Below are positions 1-54,465 of a DNA stretch of 64,000 bases, one piece after another. The stretch comes from Stomorhina lunata (Eukaryota; Arthropoda; Insecta; Diptera; Rhiniidae): NCBI GenBank assembly GCA_933228675.1, contig OW121740.1, positions 2,046,001 to 2,110,000 on the forward strand, in the 5' to 3' direction. The notes beneath the pieces are model-generated. The model ran no database searches. It had not been told where the DNA came from and worked only from the letters and a program-made list of their open reading frames with translations. How positions within the stretch are numbered: position 1 is the stretch's first letter; each line of letters begins with the position of its first letter. The position numbers and the translations under genes were made by a program.

Positions 1-1009
1 TTCATAAAAAAAATTCTATAAAAAAATTTTTGATAAAAAATTGTCTAAAGAAAAATTTTTGATGAAAAAATTTTTGATTAAAAAAAAATTCTATGGAAAA
101 ATTTTTGATAAAAAAATTTTCTATGGAAAAATTTTTGATAAAAAAATTTTCTATGAAAAAAAAATTTTTGATAAAAAAAAACTTTCTATAGAAAAATTTT
201 TGATAAAAAAATTTTCTATACAAAAATTTTTGATGAAAAAATTTTCTATACAAAAATTTTTGAAAAAAAAATTTTCTATACAAAAATTTTTGATAAAAAA
301 ATTTTCTATACAAAAATTTTTGATGAAAAAATTTTCTATAGAAAAATTTTTGATAAAAAAATTTTCTATAGAAAAATTTTTGATAAAAAAATTTTCTATG
401 GAAAAATTTTTGAAAAAAAAAACTTTCTATAGAAAAATTTTTGATAAAAAAATTTTCTATAGAAAAATTTTTGATAAAAAAATTTTCTATAGAAAAATTT
501 TTGATAAAAAAATTTTCTATAAAAAATTTTCTATAGAAAAATTTTTGATAAAAAATTTTCTATAGAAAAATTTTTGATAAAAAAATTTTCTATGGAAAAA
601 TTTTTGATAAAAAAATTTTTGATAAAAAAAATTTTTGATAAAAAAATTTTCTATAGAAAAATTTTTGATAAAAAAATTTTCTATAGACAAATTTTTGATA
701 AAAAAAAATTTTCTATAGAAAAATTTTTGATAAAAAATTTTCTATAGAAAAATTTTTGATAAAAAATTTTCTATAGAAAAATTTTTGATAAAAAAACTTT
801 CTATGGAAAAATTTTTGATAAAAAAAACTTTCTATAGAAAAATTTTTGATAAAAAAAATGTCTATAAAAAAATTTTTGATAAAAAAATTTTCTATAGAAA
901 AATTTTTGATTAAAATTTTCTATAGAAAAATTTTTGATAAAAAAATTTTCTATAGAAAAATTTTTGATAAAAAAATTTTCTATACAAAAATGTTTGATAA
1001 AAAAATTTT
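1..1009. repeat. 30-bp AT-rich satellite array
   Basis: About 33 tandem copies of a 30-bp unit that reads roughly ATTTTCTATAGAAAAATTTT followed by TGATAAAAAA. The array runs off the left edge of the window, and variants carry single-base changes or small indels. Each unit contains the perfect palindrome TTTTCTATAGAAAA, so the array could form many short hairpins. The 30-bp period is a multiple of three, so both strands stay open over hundreds of bases and give lysine/phenylalanine decapeptide repeats. These are not genes. The unit resembles the degenerate ~30-bp repeats inside the hAT-like element at 4887-6124, so the satellite may be an expansion of that internal repeat (inference). Confidence 0.95.
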
Positions 1010-1371
1010 CGTGGGTTCGAATCGGGCTCAGGTTCATGTCATAAATTATTTTTTTAATTTATGATTTTCAAATTAGATGAATAAATTTTAGGAATACTGA
1101 AAAAACTATGTGACACTTAGCAGTGTGGAATGCTGCTCGTTTTCAATTTCGCTTAAGAATTCAGTTAAATAGATGATCTTAACTACTGGCATCTAACAGT
1201 TGGTGACACAGTGTGCTGATGAAGTCCGTAGCGGGACAGAAAATGCAGCATTCCACACTGCTAAGTGTCACATAGTTTTTTCAGTATTCCTAAAATTTAT
1301 TCATCTAATTTGAAAATCATAAATTAAAAAAATAATTTATGACATGAACCTGAGCCCGACTCGAACCCACG
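1010..1371. mobile_element. Foldback element with 127-bp inverted arms
   Basis: The left arm (1010-1136) and right arm (1245-1371) are near-perfect inverted copies of each other, 127 bp each, around a 108-bp spacer. The element sits between two blocks of the 30-bp satellite, so it probably inserted into or next to the array. Both outer tips contain a tRNA B-box-like motif, GGTTCGAATCG on the left and GGTTCGAGTCG (reverse complement) on the right, one base off the usual GGTTCGANTCC. The spacer and right arm together form a hammerhead ribozyme motif on the plus strand (separate entry). No coding capacity is seen. A target-site duplication could not be assigned, and the superfamily is unknown. 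Confidence 0.9.
1203..1271 (+). ncRNA. Candidate hammerhead self-cleaving ribozyme, type I
   Basis: All three helices and the catalytic core are visible. The core strand CTGATGA is at 1216-1222 and the second core strand GAA is at 1239-1241, continuing as A-tract A1242. Stem II is GTCC (1224-1227) with GGAC (1234-1237), loop 1228-1233. Stem III is AATG (1242-1245) with CATT (1249-1252), three-base loop. The predicted cleavage site follows C1253 (UUC, a valid NUH triplet). Stem I pairs CAGTGTG (1209-1215) with CACACTG (1254-1260), then GTGACA (1203-1208) with TGTCAC (1266-1271), separated by a 5-base bulge (1261-1265) that could contact loop II. This short stem III layout is known from metazoan hammerheads in satellites and retroelements. 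The flaw is an A-A mismatch (1223/1238) at 10.1-11.1, normally a purine-pyrimidine pair, so activity may be reduced or lost. Confidence 0.75.
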
Positions 1372-1417
1372 ACCATCAACATAAATTTCTGGTTCAACTA
1401 AAATTAATTTCTTTCAA

Positions 1418-1530
1418 AAAAATTTTCTATAGAAAAATTTTTGATAAACAAATTTTCTATAGAAACATTTTTGATAAAAAAAATTTTCTATAGAAAAATT
1501 TTTGATAAAAAAGTTTTCTATAGAAAAAAA
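1418..1530. repeat. Second block of the 30-bp satellite
   Basis: Roughly three to four further copies of the same TTTTCTATAGAAAAATTTTT unit resume after the foldback element and a ~46-bp non-repetitive bridge (1372-1417). This supports the view that the foldback element and bridge interrupt a once continuous array. Confidence 0.85.
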
Positions 1531-4886: not shown

Positions 4887-6124
4887 TAGGGCTGCCAGAA
4901 TTTTTTTGTGAAAAATCGGCATATTTTTCCAAAAAGAATCGGCATTATCGGTAGTAAGTTTTCAGAAATTGGCAAAAGAAAATCGGAATTGTCAAAAAAT
5001 ATATCACAAATATAGTAGAATAATAATTAAAAATGTTCTTTAGAAATGTTTCTATAGCACAAACTTCTATTAAAAAATTTTCTATAGAACAAATTTCATA
5101 TTGAAATTTTCTAAAAGAAAAAAATCTCTATACAAAAAATTTTATATTGAAAAGCTTTCTATACAAAAAGCTTTATATTGAAAATTCTTCTACACAAAGA
5201 ATTTTTATTGAAAATTGTTCTACACAAAAAAATTTTTATTGAAAATTTTTCTACACAAAAAATTTTATGGGAAATTTTTCTAAACAAAAAATTTTGTATG
5301 GAAAATTTTTCCATACAAAAAAACTGTATGTTAAAAATTTTTTTATACAAAAAATATGGAATATATTGAAAATTTTTCTATACAAAAAAAATTTGTGTAG
5401 AAAATTTTTCAATTCAAAAATTTTTGATTGAACATTTTTTAAACTAAAAAAATTACAAACTGAATGCCAAACTTGTAATACCCTTTCACCTATTGGTAAA
5501 TAAACAAAAAATTGTATATGGAAAAATTTTCTATACAATAACTTTTATATGGAAAATTTGAAAATTTTGTTTTTTGGTTTTTAAAAAAACTATGTATTAC
5601 AATAATTAATAATTGAGATCTTAGTGCAAAAAAACACTTTTTAAAAATTTTACTTTAAAAATTTTTCTATTCTTCTTAAAAAAAATTAAACTACAGCAAA
5701 AAATTTGAATAAAAAATTTTTCTATAGAAAACAATTCCTATTGAAAGTTTTTCGGTGGAAACAAATTTAAATTAAAAATTTTTCTACAGAGACAATTTCT
5801 AATGGTAAATTTTTCCATAGAAAAAAAATTTACATTGAAAATTTTTCTATAAAAAAATTTTTTTATAACACAATTTTTTATATAAAAAATTTTATTTCGT
5901 TCCCAAATTTTGACTCTGTAAATTAAAATGTATCCGAATTATCGAAAACTTATATCTTTTTTTAACCTCATATATTGAAAAAAAAAATGTTAAAAATTTG
6001 AAATTAAGTTGGTTTTTGATATTATCTTAAAAATCGCCAATTTTTTAGCCAAAATCTGTATATCAGCACTTTACTATTTTTCAGCTCAAAAATCGCCAAA
6101 ATGCCGATAAATCTGGCAGGCCTG
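4887..6124. mobile_element. hAT-type non-autonomous element with 8-bp TSD
   Basis: The element begins TAGGGCTGCCAGA and ends TCTGGCAGGCCTG, a terminal inverted repeat of the hAT CAGGxxTG type. It is flanked by a perfect 8-bp target duplication GATTACAT at 4879-4886 and 6125-6132. Length is 1238 bp with no transposase frame. The ends share further paired sequence containing AAAATCGGCA-like motifs. The interior (about 5050-5560 and 5690-5890) holds degenerate ~30-bp units such as TTGAAAATTTTTCTATACAA. These resemble the satellite at the left edge of the window. The terminal motif plus the 8-bp duplication make the hAT assignment fairly firm; the family within hAT is not recognised. Confidence 0.88.
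5050..5890. repeat. Degenerate ~30-bp repeats inside the hAT element
   Basis: Tandem-like units of 28-30 bases alternate a CTATA(G/C)AAAAA segment with a TATTGAAAATTTTT segment. They are more diverged than the left-edge satellite. Open frames over this stretch on both strands (60-95 codons) are by-products of the repeat. Confidence 0.75.
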
Positions 6125-24699: not shown

Positions 24700-27699
24700 G
24701 ACACTTATGTATGTATATTATCGTTAAAAAAAAGTTATAAAAAGATTTGTGTATTAAAGTTCAACAAAAACTTATGAACTTAAATTGTTGTTAACGCTCC
24801 AATAAAAATGTTTACACAGTCGAAAACCATATAGTTCAAACAATTAAATTTGTTTATCAAAATGAGATCTAACAGCGTTCACTGCATTCTTTGCCAAACT
24901 TTTTAAATTGTATAATCTGGAAACCAGCGACATGTGATTACAACATAACGACGCTACGTTCTTTGCCGCTTATATCACATTGGATATTCTGCATCAGCGA
25001 TTTAAATGTATAATCACTTTACATCAGTGGTGTCAATTATGATTGTGTTGGTGAGATTACTCTTGACTCTTACATTCCTAGCGGGAAAAATGTGCGGTTG
25101 CGAGGCCTTGAGATTTGTACTGCTAAAAAAAAATGCAGAAAAATACGAAGACAAGTATTTTTTATTTATCAATGCGGATTTTGATAAATAAGAAATAGAT
25201 GAGGTTAATTTTATTTTTTTTTTTTAATGTAGAAACATCGAAGTTTCACGATTATTAAATAAGTTTTACTTTGCCGTTATTGTCTAAATGATAAATAAAT
25301 ATAATTTGAACTTTGCAATAGACAAATAAAGTTAACATATATAAGTACATTGGTTCACAGGTAATTTTATGCAGAAAAAAGATATTTAATTTAAAAATAT
25401 TTCTCCAGTTTTTACCTGAACATTTGGATAGTTTAAATACAAAAAGAAACAATTTTTTGCAAAAAGCCTACATTAAGTAATTTTCGAAAAGACGCACCTA
25501 CTACATACAAGGGCTCCAGCCTTTTTATATTTATTGTATATTTATCGATAAAAATATATTTCAATTTAGAGGCCTCAAAACAGGCCTTGCGATATTTCCC
25601 GCTGAACAAGAGTATTTCTTAGTAAAAAATCATATTTTACGCTCGCAAAATAAAAGAGCGTAAGTGTCATGTGAGTTTCATTTCCACAATTGTGTATGAC
25701 GCTGACATCCCTGCTTTACATGGAGATGATGTGAAGTGGACACTGAGATCGTGGTATTAAACTCCTTAAAATTTGTGTGTGTAGTTTTCTTAAGTAGCAG
25801 GTAAAAGCGAATAAGCCACAAACCACGGCGAATTTAAAAGCCAATTGCAAATGGAAAAATCAGTCATGCTCCGGTGTTATGGAAAATTTAACGATTCGGC
25901 CTCCTCTCAGAGAAGCCGTAGCAGATATTTGAATGATGTTATTTATATTTCACAACAAATTGGATTTATAGGCCTATTCAACCAATGAAAAATGTTAATG
26001 ACAACGAATGATCTGTTAATAAAAAAATCGTTTAGATTTATATTTTTTTATTTTTATATAAATACTTCGATGTGAAACGTTATTACCAAGTCGACTTGTG
26101 TTTCTAAAATCACTTTTGTTGCTTTCTGGTATTACAGAATTACTCAACAATTATTCTTTTTCAATCAGAGTTGTAGTTTATAAAACATTATTATTTAAAA
26201 GGAATAATTAAATTTAATAAAAAAGTATTTTAGAAACTTTTTTTAAACATACATTTAGTTGTAGTAATTTCTTACAAATTTAAAGAAATTAAAAATTGTT
26301 TTCCCCCTAAAAACTACGCTTCTATGTATTTAATTTAAATCAAAGTTATTTGGCCAATTGAACTTGGTATTTTCTTGTTAACATGAAATTTAAAAGTGCA
26401 TACATATATGTATAACATTTAATAATTAATTATCTATTTTTTATATAAAAATCTAAGTTATTGTATGAATATCATGTTAACCATTGTAAAAACTACGTCT
26501 TGGTAAGCAATAAATTTCAATTAAATTTTAAATTTTCTATTAAATTTTATATTTTGTATAGATTTCCAAAAAAGATTTACATTCTATTAAAAAAATACTC
26601 GTACTGGTTTCATTTCTATTGCAATCACTTTAAATATTATTTTCATTCAATTTGCGCTGTTCCCACATCTAATGTTTAATATTAACATCGAGAACATGTA
26701 GGATAGAATCGGAAGCAATTTATTTTTCTCTTATTTCAACAAAATATTTACTTTCACACTTACGAGTTTTTAAACCTTTAAAAAAATGTCAGTTATTTGA
26801 GTTTGGAAGAACTTTACAAACATTGCTTTACTGAGCTAAAATTGTTTGAAATGTTAAATCAAATTTAAGAATTCAGTTTGAAGAAAAACTTGTATGCATT
26901 TGGATGGTACACAAGGAAAAAAAATGATAAAACTAACTAAAAATCTAAGAGTATACAAAACGGTGAAAAGTAGCCACTAAAAATTTCATTAAAGATTAAA
27001 TTATGATTTAATATAAATCAGTATTTTATTTCAGAAACTTAATAAATTACTCTATATATTATCAACAATTTTTTTGAGTGTATTATAACCTCAAAGGATT
27101 TCTATATTTTAGATTCCGAAAACATTCTCGTGTAAATGGATGTTTTGGTTAAATTTAGTGTAGCACTTCTAAGCGAAAGAGTGTAACTTACTAAGCACTT
27201 TTCAATGTTCATGTCAATTTGTTTATTTTGAAAGTTTTCTATGTTTTTCCCATTTTTTAAAATGTTTGTTTATTTATGTCTGCCTGGTACCGACTGTCAG
27301 TTGCGCTTCGAGTTTTTTCTCTTTTGAACATACACAATGGGGCTAAAGTTTAGCTAAACAGAAAATACCTTTGATTTGTAAATGATGTTTTAAGAACTTC
27401 ACTAAAAGTAAGTCTACTTTTACATAAGTCAGATTTGGCTTATCAAGTCATGAATTTGTATGAGAAAAAACTATCAAGTTTACGAAAATTTTGAAAATTT
27501 GTATGAAATTTAAGGAAAATAATATGAAAACTGGTGAAAAGAATGTTCGTGTGTGAACGTGAATGCAGGTTTAAAAAAAATTTAAAGAAAACCTGATTCG
27601 TCTGAAACGGGACCAACTAAAAAATTTCAAAAACTATTTGAAACTAGTCTTTCAAAAAGGGGTAGGGGTAATTCTAGAAATAACTTAAAAGTTGTCAAA
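24700..27699. other. Intergenic AT-rich DNA, no gene recognised
   Basis: No gene supported. A patch at about 25580-25960 has higher GC content and looks less like simple sequence than its surroundings, but neither strand gives a recognisable protein. Confidence 0.45.
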
Positions 27700-40135: not shown

Positions 40136-42172
40136 TTAATTTTTATTTTCAGTAAAATAATCAGTACAATCTATTATATCAAGAACCTCTTCCAGGTGTT
40201 CGTTTTCAGAAGTTTTTGTATAACTGCTCCACCATTTCTTTCTTATCGTTGATAGAGCAGGATCAGAAGACAACAAGAGATAATTTATTAGATCCTGATT
40301 TTGCGATTTTCTTGAGCATTTTCTGGTATTAAATAGTTGGATATACTTGAAATCTGAATTCCGCGCTTCCTGGGCCTCTTCTGTCAGTTCACCAAGTGGG
40401 AGAAGATTTGATTCAATTATTTCACGACCATGTTGAAGGACTTTATGAACTGTTGGTGTAATTTCTTTCCAGTGATACAAATGTCGTATACGAGTTAACG
40501 CGTTGAGGGCATAGCAATGAAATTTTTCAGCATTTATTTGATATTTGCTATTTATTGCCGATAATATTACGTAACATTTACGAAGAACTTCCTCATCAAT
40601 TCCAGTAATCTTTGAAGTTGTTTCATAATTTTCAAAGAATCGCCTGGCCATATTACCATCGTTTGTACTGCCATATCCTACAAGTGGTTTGTCTATGTTT
40701 AAACCCGTCATAGTTTTGAATTCTTCCTGAATCCTTTTTTTTTCACTGGATCTCATTTCAATCAGTTCCTTATTATTTCTCACGGATTTTAGCTGATTAT
40801 CAGGTATATTCCTATATTTCAGATCATATGCTATATGTAGCATAAATTCTAAAAATCGGATACGTGCATGTAGGGGCGATATACCAAATTCCAGAACCTC
40901 TTGATTAATTGCAGTACTAGCTGATGCATCTTCTGAAGTTTGTAGAAATTCCGATTTCTTCTTTCCGCATAATGAGCATTTCCAAGTTGAATGGGTTTCC
41001 GTTATAGCGTTGCTTACTTTTCCATCTATCATTGTCAATTGAAGCTCAAAATTTACATTAATCAAATATCCATGTATGTCTATGCAGACTGGACTCAAAT
41101 TGTCTATTGAATATTTGATATCATCAACCCAATTTTTTGTGCTTGCTGCATTTTCTTTTAAATATTCGAATCTGATCGGTCTGCAAAATGCCTTTGATCC
41201 TGGAGATGTGTTAACCCACACATATTCAGTACGCTCTTTTGATGTGGATGGTTCAGAACGATTCTTTCTTAATCTTAGTGGTACTAGGGATGCCATAAAA
41301 ACGCTTCTGTAGTCATTTGTGTTCTGATGAGATGTTGATTGTTTGTATTCCGGTAATCCAGATAAACCGTCACATCCCCATTTACATATTAAAGTTAAGT
41401 CCTTGTTGTCAAGTTTCTTGGCTTCTTCTTCAGACAATGTAGTAGATATCAGCCTTGATGCCGTATTTTCCAATAATTTTGATAAATCCACAGATGCACT
41501 TTCGTCTCCTATCACGTTTGTTGGTATTAAGTTTTTTTTGGTTTTTAATAACGCATTATATCCTGGTAAAATTGAGTGTCCTTTGTCTCGTAATGCCTTA
41601 CAGAGTTTAATATATTTATTTTTACTCAATTTCAACTCGAGCATAAGAGCAAGTGCTTCTTCCTCCGAAAATTCTGATTGAGAAGAAGGAGTTGGTATAC
41701 TCTTAATAATTCGCTTAAGACGTTTAGGAGAAGCCTCTGGGAGAATATCTGCTATTTGTTTAGCTTCAGCTGGTTGATTATTTCGTTTGAGCACTTCCTT
41801 AAAGGAATCTTTGATTTCAGTATCCGAATGAGTAGAAAGAACTTCGGATAATCGCATCTTTTTAGATCTTTCTCCGAGATCATCATAGATTTTTAGAGGG
41901 GCTCCAGCACCAGAAGTTTTAAGCTCAATTGAGTCCTTCAGCCAGTCTTTAAATTTAGATTCAAATCTTTTTAAACAGTAATTAACCGACTTAATTTTAA
42001 GTTCAAATAACTTTACAAATTTTACGACTTTGTCTTCCTCACTATTGAGAATCATGGAGTTAGTTTGACTTTTAGCATATCGCATGATTATTTTAATTTT
42101 TTCTGCTCTCGAACTGCTTGGTTGTTCAAAAAGAATATCGCACAACACTTTAAATTCCAATGTTATAGCCAT
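40136..42172 (-). CDS. Transib transposase (RAG1-like), 678 aa, intact
   Basis: Cut-and-paste transposase that nicks at CACAGTG ends. The RAG1/Transib core is visible in order. KWGCDGLSG holds the first catalytic Asp at D268. LTMIDGKVSNAITET holds the second at D383. A CSLCGKK zinc-binding pair follows at C399/C402. Next are SPLHARIRFLEF (433-443), a STNDGNMARRFFENY stretch (502-516) and H552, H564 and H567. LGELTEEAQEARN (593-605) carries the probable catalytic Glu. The N-terminal ~250 residues are charged and probably bind DNA. Full family-like length, no stops or frameshifts, single exon. The start at 42172 is the first ATG of the frame, in context ATCATGG. AATAAA on the minus strand at 40102-40107 is a candidate polyadenylation signal. 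Function rests on recognised motifs, not a search. Confidence 0.93.
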   Translation of the reverse strand: MAITLEFKVLCDILFEQPSSSRAEKIKIIMRYAKSQTNSMILNSEEDKVVKFVKLFELKIKSVNYCLKRFESKFKDWLKDSIELKTSGAGAPLKIYDDLGERSKKMRLSEVLSTHSDTEIKDSFKEVLKRNNQPAEAKQIADILPEASPKRLKRIIKSIPTPSSQSEFSEEEALALMLELKLSKNKYIKLCKALRDKGHSILPGYNALLKTKKNLIPTNVIGDESASVDLSKLLENTASRLISTTLSEEEAKKLDNKDLTLICKWGCDGLSGLPEYKQSTSHQNTNDYRSVFMASLVPLRLRKNRSEPSTSKERTEYVWVNTSPGSKAFCRPIRFEYLKENAASTKNWVDDIKYSIDNLSPVCIDIHGYLINVNFELQLTMIDGKVSNAITETHSTWKCSLCGKKKSEFLQTSEDASASTAINQEVLEFGISPLHARIRFLEFMLHIAYDLKYRNIPDNQLKSVRNNKELIEMRSSEKKRIQEEFKTMTGLNIDKPLVGYGSTNDGNMARRFFENYETTSKITGIDEEVLRKCYVILSAINSKYQINAEKFHCYALNALTRIRHLYHWKEITPTVHKVLQHGREIIESNLLPLGELTEEAQEARNSDFKYIQLFNTRKCSRKSQNQDLINYLLLSSDPALSTIRKKWWSSYTKTSENEHLEEVLDIIDCTDYFTENKN

Positions 42173-42734
42173 GATGTTTTAACTGTTAATAGCAGTTACA
42201 TTTAAAACTTTCTTTTTTATATTAAAAAAAAACATTTTTTATATATACCTGTATCCAAAGAATAATAAAGAAATCAATGAATTAATGTATTTTTTACCTC
42301 TAAAAATAGGTGCATATATAACTCAACCAATATGTGCGTCTCGTAAAACCTACCTGTATGGAGGTGAGTAACCATATCCTTTCTGACCATTATGAAAAAC
42401 CCAAGTTGTAACAATTTTTACCTATTGCATTAACTTTCACATTAAAAAACATTTTATAACCTTAACATAATTTTGCAATTTTTTCAAATACACCAATTTT
42501 AAATACCGGAAAAATGCCTTTAAATCTTATTTTAAATAAATTGTCACACTGTTACTATAAAAGTACTCTTCTAATTAAACTTTTGCTACAAATTATGGAT
42601 ATATTACCTTTACACTGTTATCAAAATCGGTGCCTTACTCGTACTTACTTATTTAGAATCTTTTACTAAAATTTTATTTTTTAGCTTGGAACAAAAGGCA
42701 AAATCGAATAAAATTTTTTTAAGTCATTCTTATA

Positions 42735-53383: not shown

Positions 53384-53583
53384 CTTAGCACGCTTGATCA
53401 ATTCGTTTTGACCAGCAGCAATGTTTTCCTTCTTTCCGCCCCAGGCACGGAGTACGGAAGCTTGCAAAGCACGGCCATAAGAGAAGGTCAAAGCCCAGGG
53501 TTTCAACAAAGGAACTTGGTTAATGGCGTTCAAGTGAACGGAAGCTTCTTCTTCGGATTGACCACCAGACAAGAAGGTGATAC
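53384..53583 (-). CDS. Ald: Aldolase common exon 3
   Basis: A 200-base exon bounded by TGCTTAG on its 5' side and donor AAG|GTAAGT on its 3' side. With the one base carried from exon 2 it codes 67 residues (267-333), beginning [16 protein letters not shown] and including [19 protein letters not shown]. These supply the phosphate-binding serine and arginine of the class I aldolase barrel. It ends LIKRAK, after which any of the three last exons continues in frame, for a total of 364 residues. Confidence 0.95.
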
Positions 53584-53644
53584 CTAAGCAAAAATAAAAT
53601 ATATAGAAAAGATCCTATCAACCGTTTTATGTGGAGAAACTTAC

Positions 53645-54443
53645 CGGGAACGGCAGCAGGTACGGTTCTGCGCAAAGCGGTAACGGTAGCCAAAGCGACT
53701 TCTTGAGGTGTGTTCTTCTTGGGACATGATTGACCAGCTGTGACCATGTTGGGCTTCAACAAAGTACCTTCCAAGAAGACGTGGTGATCGTTCAAGGCCT
53801 TGTAGACGGCGGCCAAAACGGTTTCAGTGACCTTTTGGGCACGATCCAAATCGTGATCACCATCGGGCAAAACTTCAGGCTCTACAATGGGGACAATACC
53901 TTGAGATTGGCAAATGGAGGCATAACGAGCCAAAACGTTGGCATTTTCCAAGATGGATTGGTAAGATGGGGTGTTCTTGCCAATCTTCAAGACGCAACGC
54001 CACTTGGCGAAATCACAACCGTCCTTTTTGTACTGAGCGCAACGAGCAGCCAAATCATCCAAACCTTGAGTGGTGCATTCATCTTCAGAGCCCATCAATG
54101 GGACAACACCCTTGTCGACCTTGATGCCGGGAATGATACCGCGCTTCTTCAACAATTCAACGAAGGGTAAACCGTTGTCAGCTTTTTGGTACAAGGTTTC
54201 GTGGAACAAGATAACGCCGGAGATATTTTCGTTAAGTTTGTCATCAGCGGTGAACAAAAGTTGACGGTAAGCGCGACGGTTATCTTCAGTGTTCTCAACA
54301 CCGATGTCCTTGAAACGCTTGCCTACGGTAGCGACAGACTCATCAGCAGCAAGAATACCCTTACCGGGAGCGACGATAGCCTGAGCAATGCGCTTAAGTT
54401 CGGCTTGCAATTCAGCGGAGGGGTATGAGAAGTAGGTAGTCAT
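53645..54443 (-). CDS. Ald: Fructose-bisphosphate aldolase, first coding exon
   Basis: Class I aldolase: cleaves fructose-1,6-bisphosphate to dihydroxyacetone phosphate and glyceraldehyde-3-phosphate in cytosolic glycolysis. This exon codes residues 1-266 plus one base, starting [13 protein letters not shown]. Visible active-site residues (Met counted as 1) are D34 in AADES, K108 in GIKVDKG, K147 in FAKWRC, E188 in VEPEVLP and the Schiff-base lysine K230 in [10 protein letters not shown]. The donor is CCCG|GTAAGT at 53645/53644; the intron to exon 3 is only 61 bases. Codon use is GC-richer than the surroundings, as for a highly expressed gene. The apparent 307-codon frame continues into the intron and should be cut at 53645. 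Confidence 0.97.
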
Positions 54444-54465
54444 CTTGTATAGGAGATTTGCTTAA
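54444..54465 (-). other. Ald: Aldolase 5' UTR end and splice acceptor
   Basis: The minus strand reads CATTACAG, then TTAAGCAAATCTCCTATACA, then AGATG. The acceptor AG at 54466-54467 leaves 22 untranslated bases before the ATG, so at least one untranslated exon lies further upstream, as in Drosophila Ald. Confidence 0.75.

Follow-up and report, generated by a model that had tools for sequence, protein, structure and literature searches.

A hammerhead-like motif set within a short inverted repeat lies near the left end of a 64,000-nt stretch of Stomorhina lunata DNA (C1:2046001-2110000; hereafter the window), and copies of it were searched for over the 728-Mb genome. The arms of the inverted repeat were placed by a repeat search at 1009-1136 and 1245-1372; they are 128 nt each, 99% complementary and 108 nt apart. 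The motif, of type I, spans 1203..1271 on the plus strand and comprises the core CTGATGA (1216-1222), stem II GTCC/GGAC (1224-1227/1234-1237), GAAA (1239-1242), stem III AATG/CATT with the loop CAG (1242-1245/1249-1252), a TTC triplet (1251-1253) with cleavage predicted after C1253, and a stem I, read from sequence and folding, of 7+6 bp with a 5-nt bulge on its 3' side. Core, stems and inverted repeat were all found as given in a preliminary description of this DNA, as was the layout, with the core in the spacer and the right arm supplying the 3' half of both stem I and stem III. The A-A mismatch that had been reported at 10.1-11.1 was also recovered; in the stem II region (1223..1238, plus strand), A1223 stands unpaired opposite A1238, flanking GTCC/GGAC.

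The motif belongs to a repeat unit of about 562 bp, phased here with u1 directly after the predicted cleavage site. A first genome search gave 97 matches (40 candidates scored), mostly to parts of the repeat rather than to foldbacks. A 38-mer of the hammerhead, with up to 2 mismatches allowed, had 718 forward and 745 reverse matches (1,463 in all), while its reversed control had none on either strand; because the motif is conserved genome-wide in this way, it stands above chance. The 100 places listed from the 38-mer search formed 67 loci by a 2-kb rule, and 40 loci were read, 20 from the best matches of the first search (a non-random choice) and the first 20 listed along C1; L016 and L043 proved to be the same locus, and L030 is the window's own. 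These loci contain tandem units, each with a type I hammerhead-like motif, with up to about 6 units per arm. The unit has a GC content of 31% and no long open reading frame (ORF), the longest M-initiated ORF in a tripled unit having 43 codons; unlike autonomous Penelope-like elements (PLEs), it does not encode a reverse transcriptase (RT) with a GIY-YIG endonuclease. Judged by its sequence, the repeat is an animal (non-long terminal repeat, non-LTR) retrozyme. Such retrozymes were described by Cervera and de la Pena (2020, PMC7229834) as tandem repeats of 150-450 bp with type I hammerheads, insects being named among the groups that have them. By comparison with that account, the unit described here is longer (562 bp versus 150-450 bp), forms divergent 5'-to-5' arrays with paired ends of two kinds, and is known here from DNA alone. 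The lack of coding capacity and the GC content below 50% are as expected of animal retrozymes. Target-site duplications (TSDs) of more than 4 bp, likewise expected of them, are indicated by the longest string common to both flanks, which has a median length of 12 over 39 loci; the hammerhead was not recognized by a covariance model.

Sensitive mapping showed that most loci are divergent, the units to the left lying on the minus strand and those to the right on the plus strand, with their 5' ends facing each other. Neighbours no more than 2 kb apart, taken from the 100 listed places, comprised 15 minus-plus, 1 plus-minus and 17 same-strand pairs, the sole plus-minus pair being formed by two adjoining divergent loci (L017). 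After removal of the duplicate L043 and of L012, whose right end was missing from the sequence taken, and with L017 counted twice, 39 loci were analysed; two arms were called in 29 of these and were clear in 27. The outer ends cluster at two places in the unit, separated by 37 nt, namely site A at u163 (mapped at u159-170, with the true position near u163) and site B at u126 (mapped at u119-136). One end of each kind was found in 24 of the 27 clear two-armed loci, with A/A at 1 (L045), A and another position at 2 and B/B at none; site A was used by each of the 27. If ends were chosen independently, the probability of finding exactly one A at 26 or more of 27 loci would be about 2e-7. The unselected set (L030-L049 without L043, 19 loci) included 10 clearly two-armed loci, 8 of them A/B, and the one-armed loci (10) ended at A in 6 cases and at B in 4. 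At L016 and L047 a third end position (u82 and u76, respectively) replaces B and is possibly a third start site.

The foldback of the window is a short case of such a divergent array. Mapping of the locus gave a minus-strand piece of 128 nt at 1009..1136, running from u119 back to u554 with a B-type outer end, and a plus-strand piece of about 280 nt at 1136..1417, running from u445 through the hammerhead to u163 with an A-type outer end (the latter mapped to u170, with the last bases a chance match, and the A end was taken from the sequence). The two pieces meet 5' to 5' at 1136..1137 with a 1-nt overlap and are flanked by copies of a 12-bp TSD, AAAAAAATTTTC, at 999..1010 on the left and 1416..1427 on the right; 12 is the longest string shared by the flanks at this locus, and the A-type outer end overlaps the duplication. 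On the plus strand, a stretch GAACC ... GGTTC at 1346..1395 frames the start sites and resembles, by sequence comparison, the GACC ... GGTC of PLE leaders, a likeness for which homology statistics were not significant.

Flank matches of at least 10 were found at 29 of the 39 loci, including 26 of the 27 clear two-armed ones, compared with 17% for control pairings of different loci and 27% for shifted windows of the same flank. Chance flank matches are common in satellite surroundings; L036 and L014, which lie in other sequence, still have matches of 12 each. At the 27 inner junctions measured (with L012, and without L023, L032 and L042), the two arms overlap by 0-5 nt in 22 and are separated by 1-18 extra bases in 5. 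The 5' ends of the arms are scattered across the unit, and the joining points vary accordingly. Five loci have long arms (overlap of at least 680 nt; L009, L010, L012, L048 and L049); when the last 1,200 nt were compared, the two arms of each locus differed by 1-4 changes, versus at least 4-7 changes to arms of other loci, so that at these five both arms appear to have been copied from the same sequence. Across the 19 loci compared, own arms were closer to each other than to any other locus in 6. Of 70 arm pieces, 57 continue beyond the site of ribozyme cleavage, and only 1 of the 70 arms has its 5' end within 8 nt of that site (about 2 expected); the template was accordingly a circle or an uncleaved multimer and not a ribozyme-cleaved linear monomer. 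Arm length is within about 12 nt of one unit in 5 of 70, a weak peak.

The same genome contains PLEs. A Pfam search for GIY-YIG found 2 places only; with the GIY-YIG endonuclease fragment L051 (PF01541) as query, 150 of 206 candidates were scored as matches. At 11 of these 150 the frame is open over 830-864 codons, and both frames scanned (L053 and L054) contain RT (PF00078) and GIY-YIG (PF01541) domains. PLE neighbours within 7 kb comprised 25 minus-plus, 0 plus-minus and 20 same-strand pairs. The PLE leader consists of a hammerhead-like motif, GACC...GGTC, a G+C hairpin and the start codon; the motif is clear by eye in four leaders. In the leaders L058 and L068, hammerhead-like motifs with CTGAAGA cores were read by eye and are not listed by Rfam. 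In six of the seven PLE arrays mapped, one outer end (A) lies at +17 to +29 and the other (B) at -9 to -19 relative to GGTC, and each of these six has a flank match of 12-17; the one end examined of a further PLE (C2:66.627M) is A-type, at +30. The retrozyme sites relative to its own GGTTC are +22 (A) and -15 (B). In both kinds of element one end is longer, by 30-48 nt in the six PLE arrays and by 37 nt in the retrozyme.

These features recall PLEs studied elsewhere. Adineta vaga PLEs are described as having inverted pseudo-long terminal repeats (pLTRs), optionally with a 31-bp tail on one of them, together with TSDs of 8-10 bp in some copies, and as being arranged most often head-to-head (PMC3846280), and a PLE of Anolis cuts and extends both strands of AT-rich DNA in vitro and has two adjacent internal start sites of reverse transcription, with the stretch between them forming a tail of 30-40 bp (Frangieh et al., PMC11167929). 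Like PLEs, the retrozyme has divergent arrays of 5'-to-5' inverted copies, short TSDs, AT-rich targets, a hammerhead upstream of the presumed start sites and two end sites 37 nt apart, as would be left, in the form of one tailed and one untailed end, by two internal RT start sites 30-40 nt apart. By analogy, its A/B end pair would match the PLE tail and the two start sites of the Anolis PLE. The retrozyme motif differs from minimal PLE hammerheads in the presence of a stem III and of a bulge in its stem I. The ~30-bp AT-rich satellite AAAATTTTCTATAGAAAAATTTTTGAT occurs at 4-1009, 1416-1528, 5044-5895 and other positions of the window, and such satellite may be a favoured target, since similar sequence flanks many of the retrozyme and PLE insertions read.

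Taking into consideration the 5'-to-5' arrays, the duplications of about 12 bp, the A/B ends, the junction overlaps and the same anatomy in resident PLEs, the element in the window very probably arose as a single insertion of a non-coding hammerhead retrozyme that a PLE protein mobilised in trans, and the foldback is best explained as a by-product of a two-sided, Penelope-type retrozyme insertion. The preliminary description had offered either a retrozyme- or Penelope-like RNA stage or the capture of a ribozyme by a miniature inverted-repeat transposable element (MITE). The former is strongly supported by the tandem hammerhead units, the 5'-to-5' arrays, the target duplications and the two-site ends as in PLEs. 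The latter found no support, as the inverted repeat arises where two copies of one repeat meet in opposite orientation, with an inner boundary that varies by locus and with asymmetric outer ends. Since the two ends use different start sites, the data also suggest that both complementary DNAs (cDNAs) come from one RNA or one ribonucleoprotein.

In the mechanism proposed, a PLE protein, perhaps as a dimer on both start sites of one RNA, would cut an AT-rich target on both strands, with about 12 nt between the cuts, and the two target 3' ends would serve as primers on a shared retrozyme RNA, reverse transcription starting at A from one and at B from the other. Synthesis of each cDNA would then continue past the ribozyme site, for up to several turns or units, and the two cDNA ends would be united by end joining; an early stop would give a short foldback like that of the window and a longer run an extended divergent array. 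Processing of the transcript would fall to the hammerhead, perhaps in dimeric form (stem III being too weak by itself) or with help from the PLE protein. In its most specific form, which is put forward tentatively and with rather less than even confidence, this amounts to twin target-primed reverse transcription on a single hammerhead-made circular RNA by two PLE reverse transcriptases 37 nt apart, with the cDNAs joined 5' to 5'. If so, retrozymes would be trans-mobilised parasites of PLEs that gain several genome copies per foldback insertion.

Mobilisation by PLEs is not itself a new idea, as PLEs have been named, as a proposal, a strong candidate mobiliser of animal retrozymes (PMC7229834). 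The main text of that paper does not contain the word "inverted", and a literature search that covered few subscription papers found no description of divergent or head-to-head retrozyme arrays or of PLE-type retrozyme ends. Copying by PLEs, if true, would answer the open question of how such elements move, and PLE-type insertion would account for a class of hammerhead "foldback" and satellite-like repeats. Both the retrozyme, which the anatomy links to PLE-type initiation, and PLEs with long open frames occur in this one genome, which offers a ready test system. Moreover, the rule of different start sites bears on a point of PLE integration that the in vitro work, in its available part, left open (PMC11167929).

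Several observations are weak points of the motif itself or weigh against PLE-driven insertion of a hammerhead retrozyme. The core CTGATGA with GAAA, taken by itself, is about as frequent in the window as chance would have it (0.87 occurrences expected and 2 found, the latter number being reached in 21 of 100 shuffles). Rfam covariance models gave the motif no support, with no hammerhead listed in the window at the gathering score and none in a search of 900-1600 at E<=10, and a genome-wide RF00163 search, in which 73 of 59,897 candidates were scored, returned one 20.9-bit match, elsewhere and under the cut-off. Nearly all copies have the A/A mismatch beside stem II; of 1,252 pattern matches, 1,244 carry A at the first position (that of A1223), and all matches listed carry it at the second (that of A1238). 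With regard to insertion anatomy, 10 of the 39 loci are one-armed, with just 3 of these 10 reaching a flank match of at least 10, and the second arm of L032 and L042 is a doubtful stub of 30-55 nt (ends at u444 and u478). In 13 of the 19 loci compared, mostly with short overlaps, another locus was equally close, and the arms of L021 (504 nt) differ by 11 changes, with 15 of 18 arms of other loci as close. Among the PLEs, the array at C2:135.68M has an A end together with an end 78 nt before GGTC and lacks a TSD, and the ends of the pair at C7:108.28M (L077-L078) could not be placed and were kept out of the end table, since no leader of that family was available as a reference. A profile hidden Markov model (HMM) of PLE leaders gave 1.9 bits against the retrozyme, which is not significant, and a covariance model of seven PLE leaders matched L009 with E 0.26 and the window with E 1.4, neither being the best match; the retrozyme's own matches sit at the right place (u92-158 for the HMM, u84-185 for the covariance model), at background score. 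A match by sequence pattern, reached by 3 of 2,000 shuffles, used a pattern chosen after the sequence had been viewed.

Rfam likewise lists no hammerhead in the four PLE leaders where one was read by eye, and the PLE leaders L066 and L067 also carry an A after CTGATGA. A viroid hammerhead with an extra A after CTGATGA is known. Six of the 8 exceptions at the first A carry a T, which could pair with the opposite A; the pattern search placed these copies at C2:87518756, C7:90558176, C10:53042538, C11:48666649, C11:65165996 and C11:75881639. The hammerhead copies are very alike, and their conservation is not informative on stem covariation. The isolated 69-mer folds otherwise (-21.8 versus -18.8 kcal/mol for the hammerhead fold), with an unexceptional folding energy (z -1.66). 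Stem III alone gave no stable fold, and its pairing with a second copy gave -9.0 kcal/mol; a dimeric hammerhead is therefore the more likely form in which the motif would be active. Dimeric hammerheads have reportedly been found for PLE and newt RNAs. The exact hammerhead 27-mer was absent from the viral contigs searched.

A variant in which the retrozyme is likewise PLE-driven, with an uncleaved multimeric transcript as template, the hammerhead a dead relic and no circular RNA, is possible, though less likely than not. It would fit the near-constant A opposite A beside stem II, the lack of Rfam support, the copying past the cleavage site in most arm pieces and the absence of an excess of arm 5' ends near that site. 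In the Anolis study, moreover, hammerhead mutants left in vitro insertion unchanged, and its authors regard unprocessed RNA as the principal substrate (PMC11167929). However, core, stems and cleavage triplet are intact in the 1,463 matches, one insertion can hold up to 6 near-identical units per arm, the arms close to one unit in length point, weakly, away from this variant, and copying past the cleavage site fits a circle too.

A foldback or MITE-like DNA transposon of the Tetris/FB kind, with tandem units in terminal inverted repeats, a hammerhead captured by chance and arms kept alike by gene conversion, is very improbable. Drosophila foldback elements such as FB and Tetris have inverted arms built of tandem units, a trait that the retrozyme shares; the inverted repeats and the roughly constant TSD of about 12 bp agree with this, and the identity of long arms within loci could be due to conversion. 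Unlike FB/Tetris, however, the retrozyme has asymmetric termini in place of symmetric terminal inverted repeats (offset by about 37 nt at 24 of the 27 loci), its inner boundaries are scattered over the unit with 0-5 nt overlaps at 22 of 27 junctions, its anatomy is of an RNA type, and autonomous PLEs of the genome show the same layout. A satellite grown by unequal crossing-over or DNA rolling circles, with a hammerhead inherited by chance, is least credible of all, for although the tandem arrays adjoin AT-rich satellite, the loci are dispersed and have TSDs, two outer end sites and opposite-strand halves. MITE capture, a satellite alone and a foldback transposon were accordingly rejected on the two-site ends, the TSDs and the scattered junctions.

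Elsewhere in the window, a 24.7-bit match to the PLE leader model at 24767-24906 (E 0.067) was dropped, as no leader motifs were seen by eye. An open frame of 680 codons on the minus strand at 40136-42178 has no Pfam match and, by eye, resembles a Transib/RAG1-type transposase. At 53520-54458, also on the minus strand, lies a fructose-bisphosphate aldolase exon that points to an animal, probably insect, source; its best match among solved structures is PDB 1fba, a Drosophila protein.
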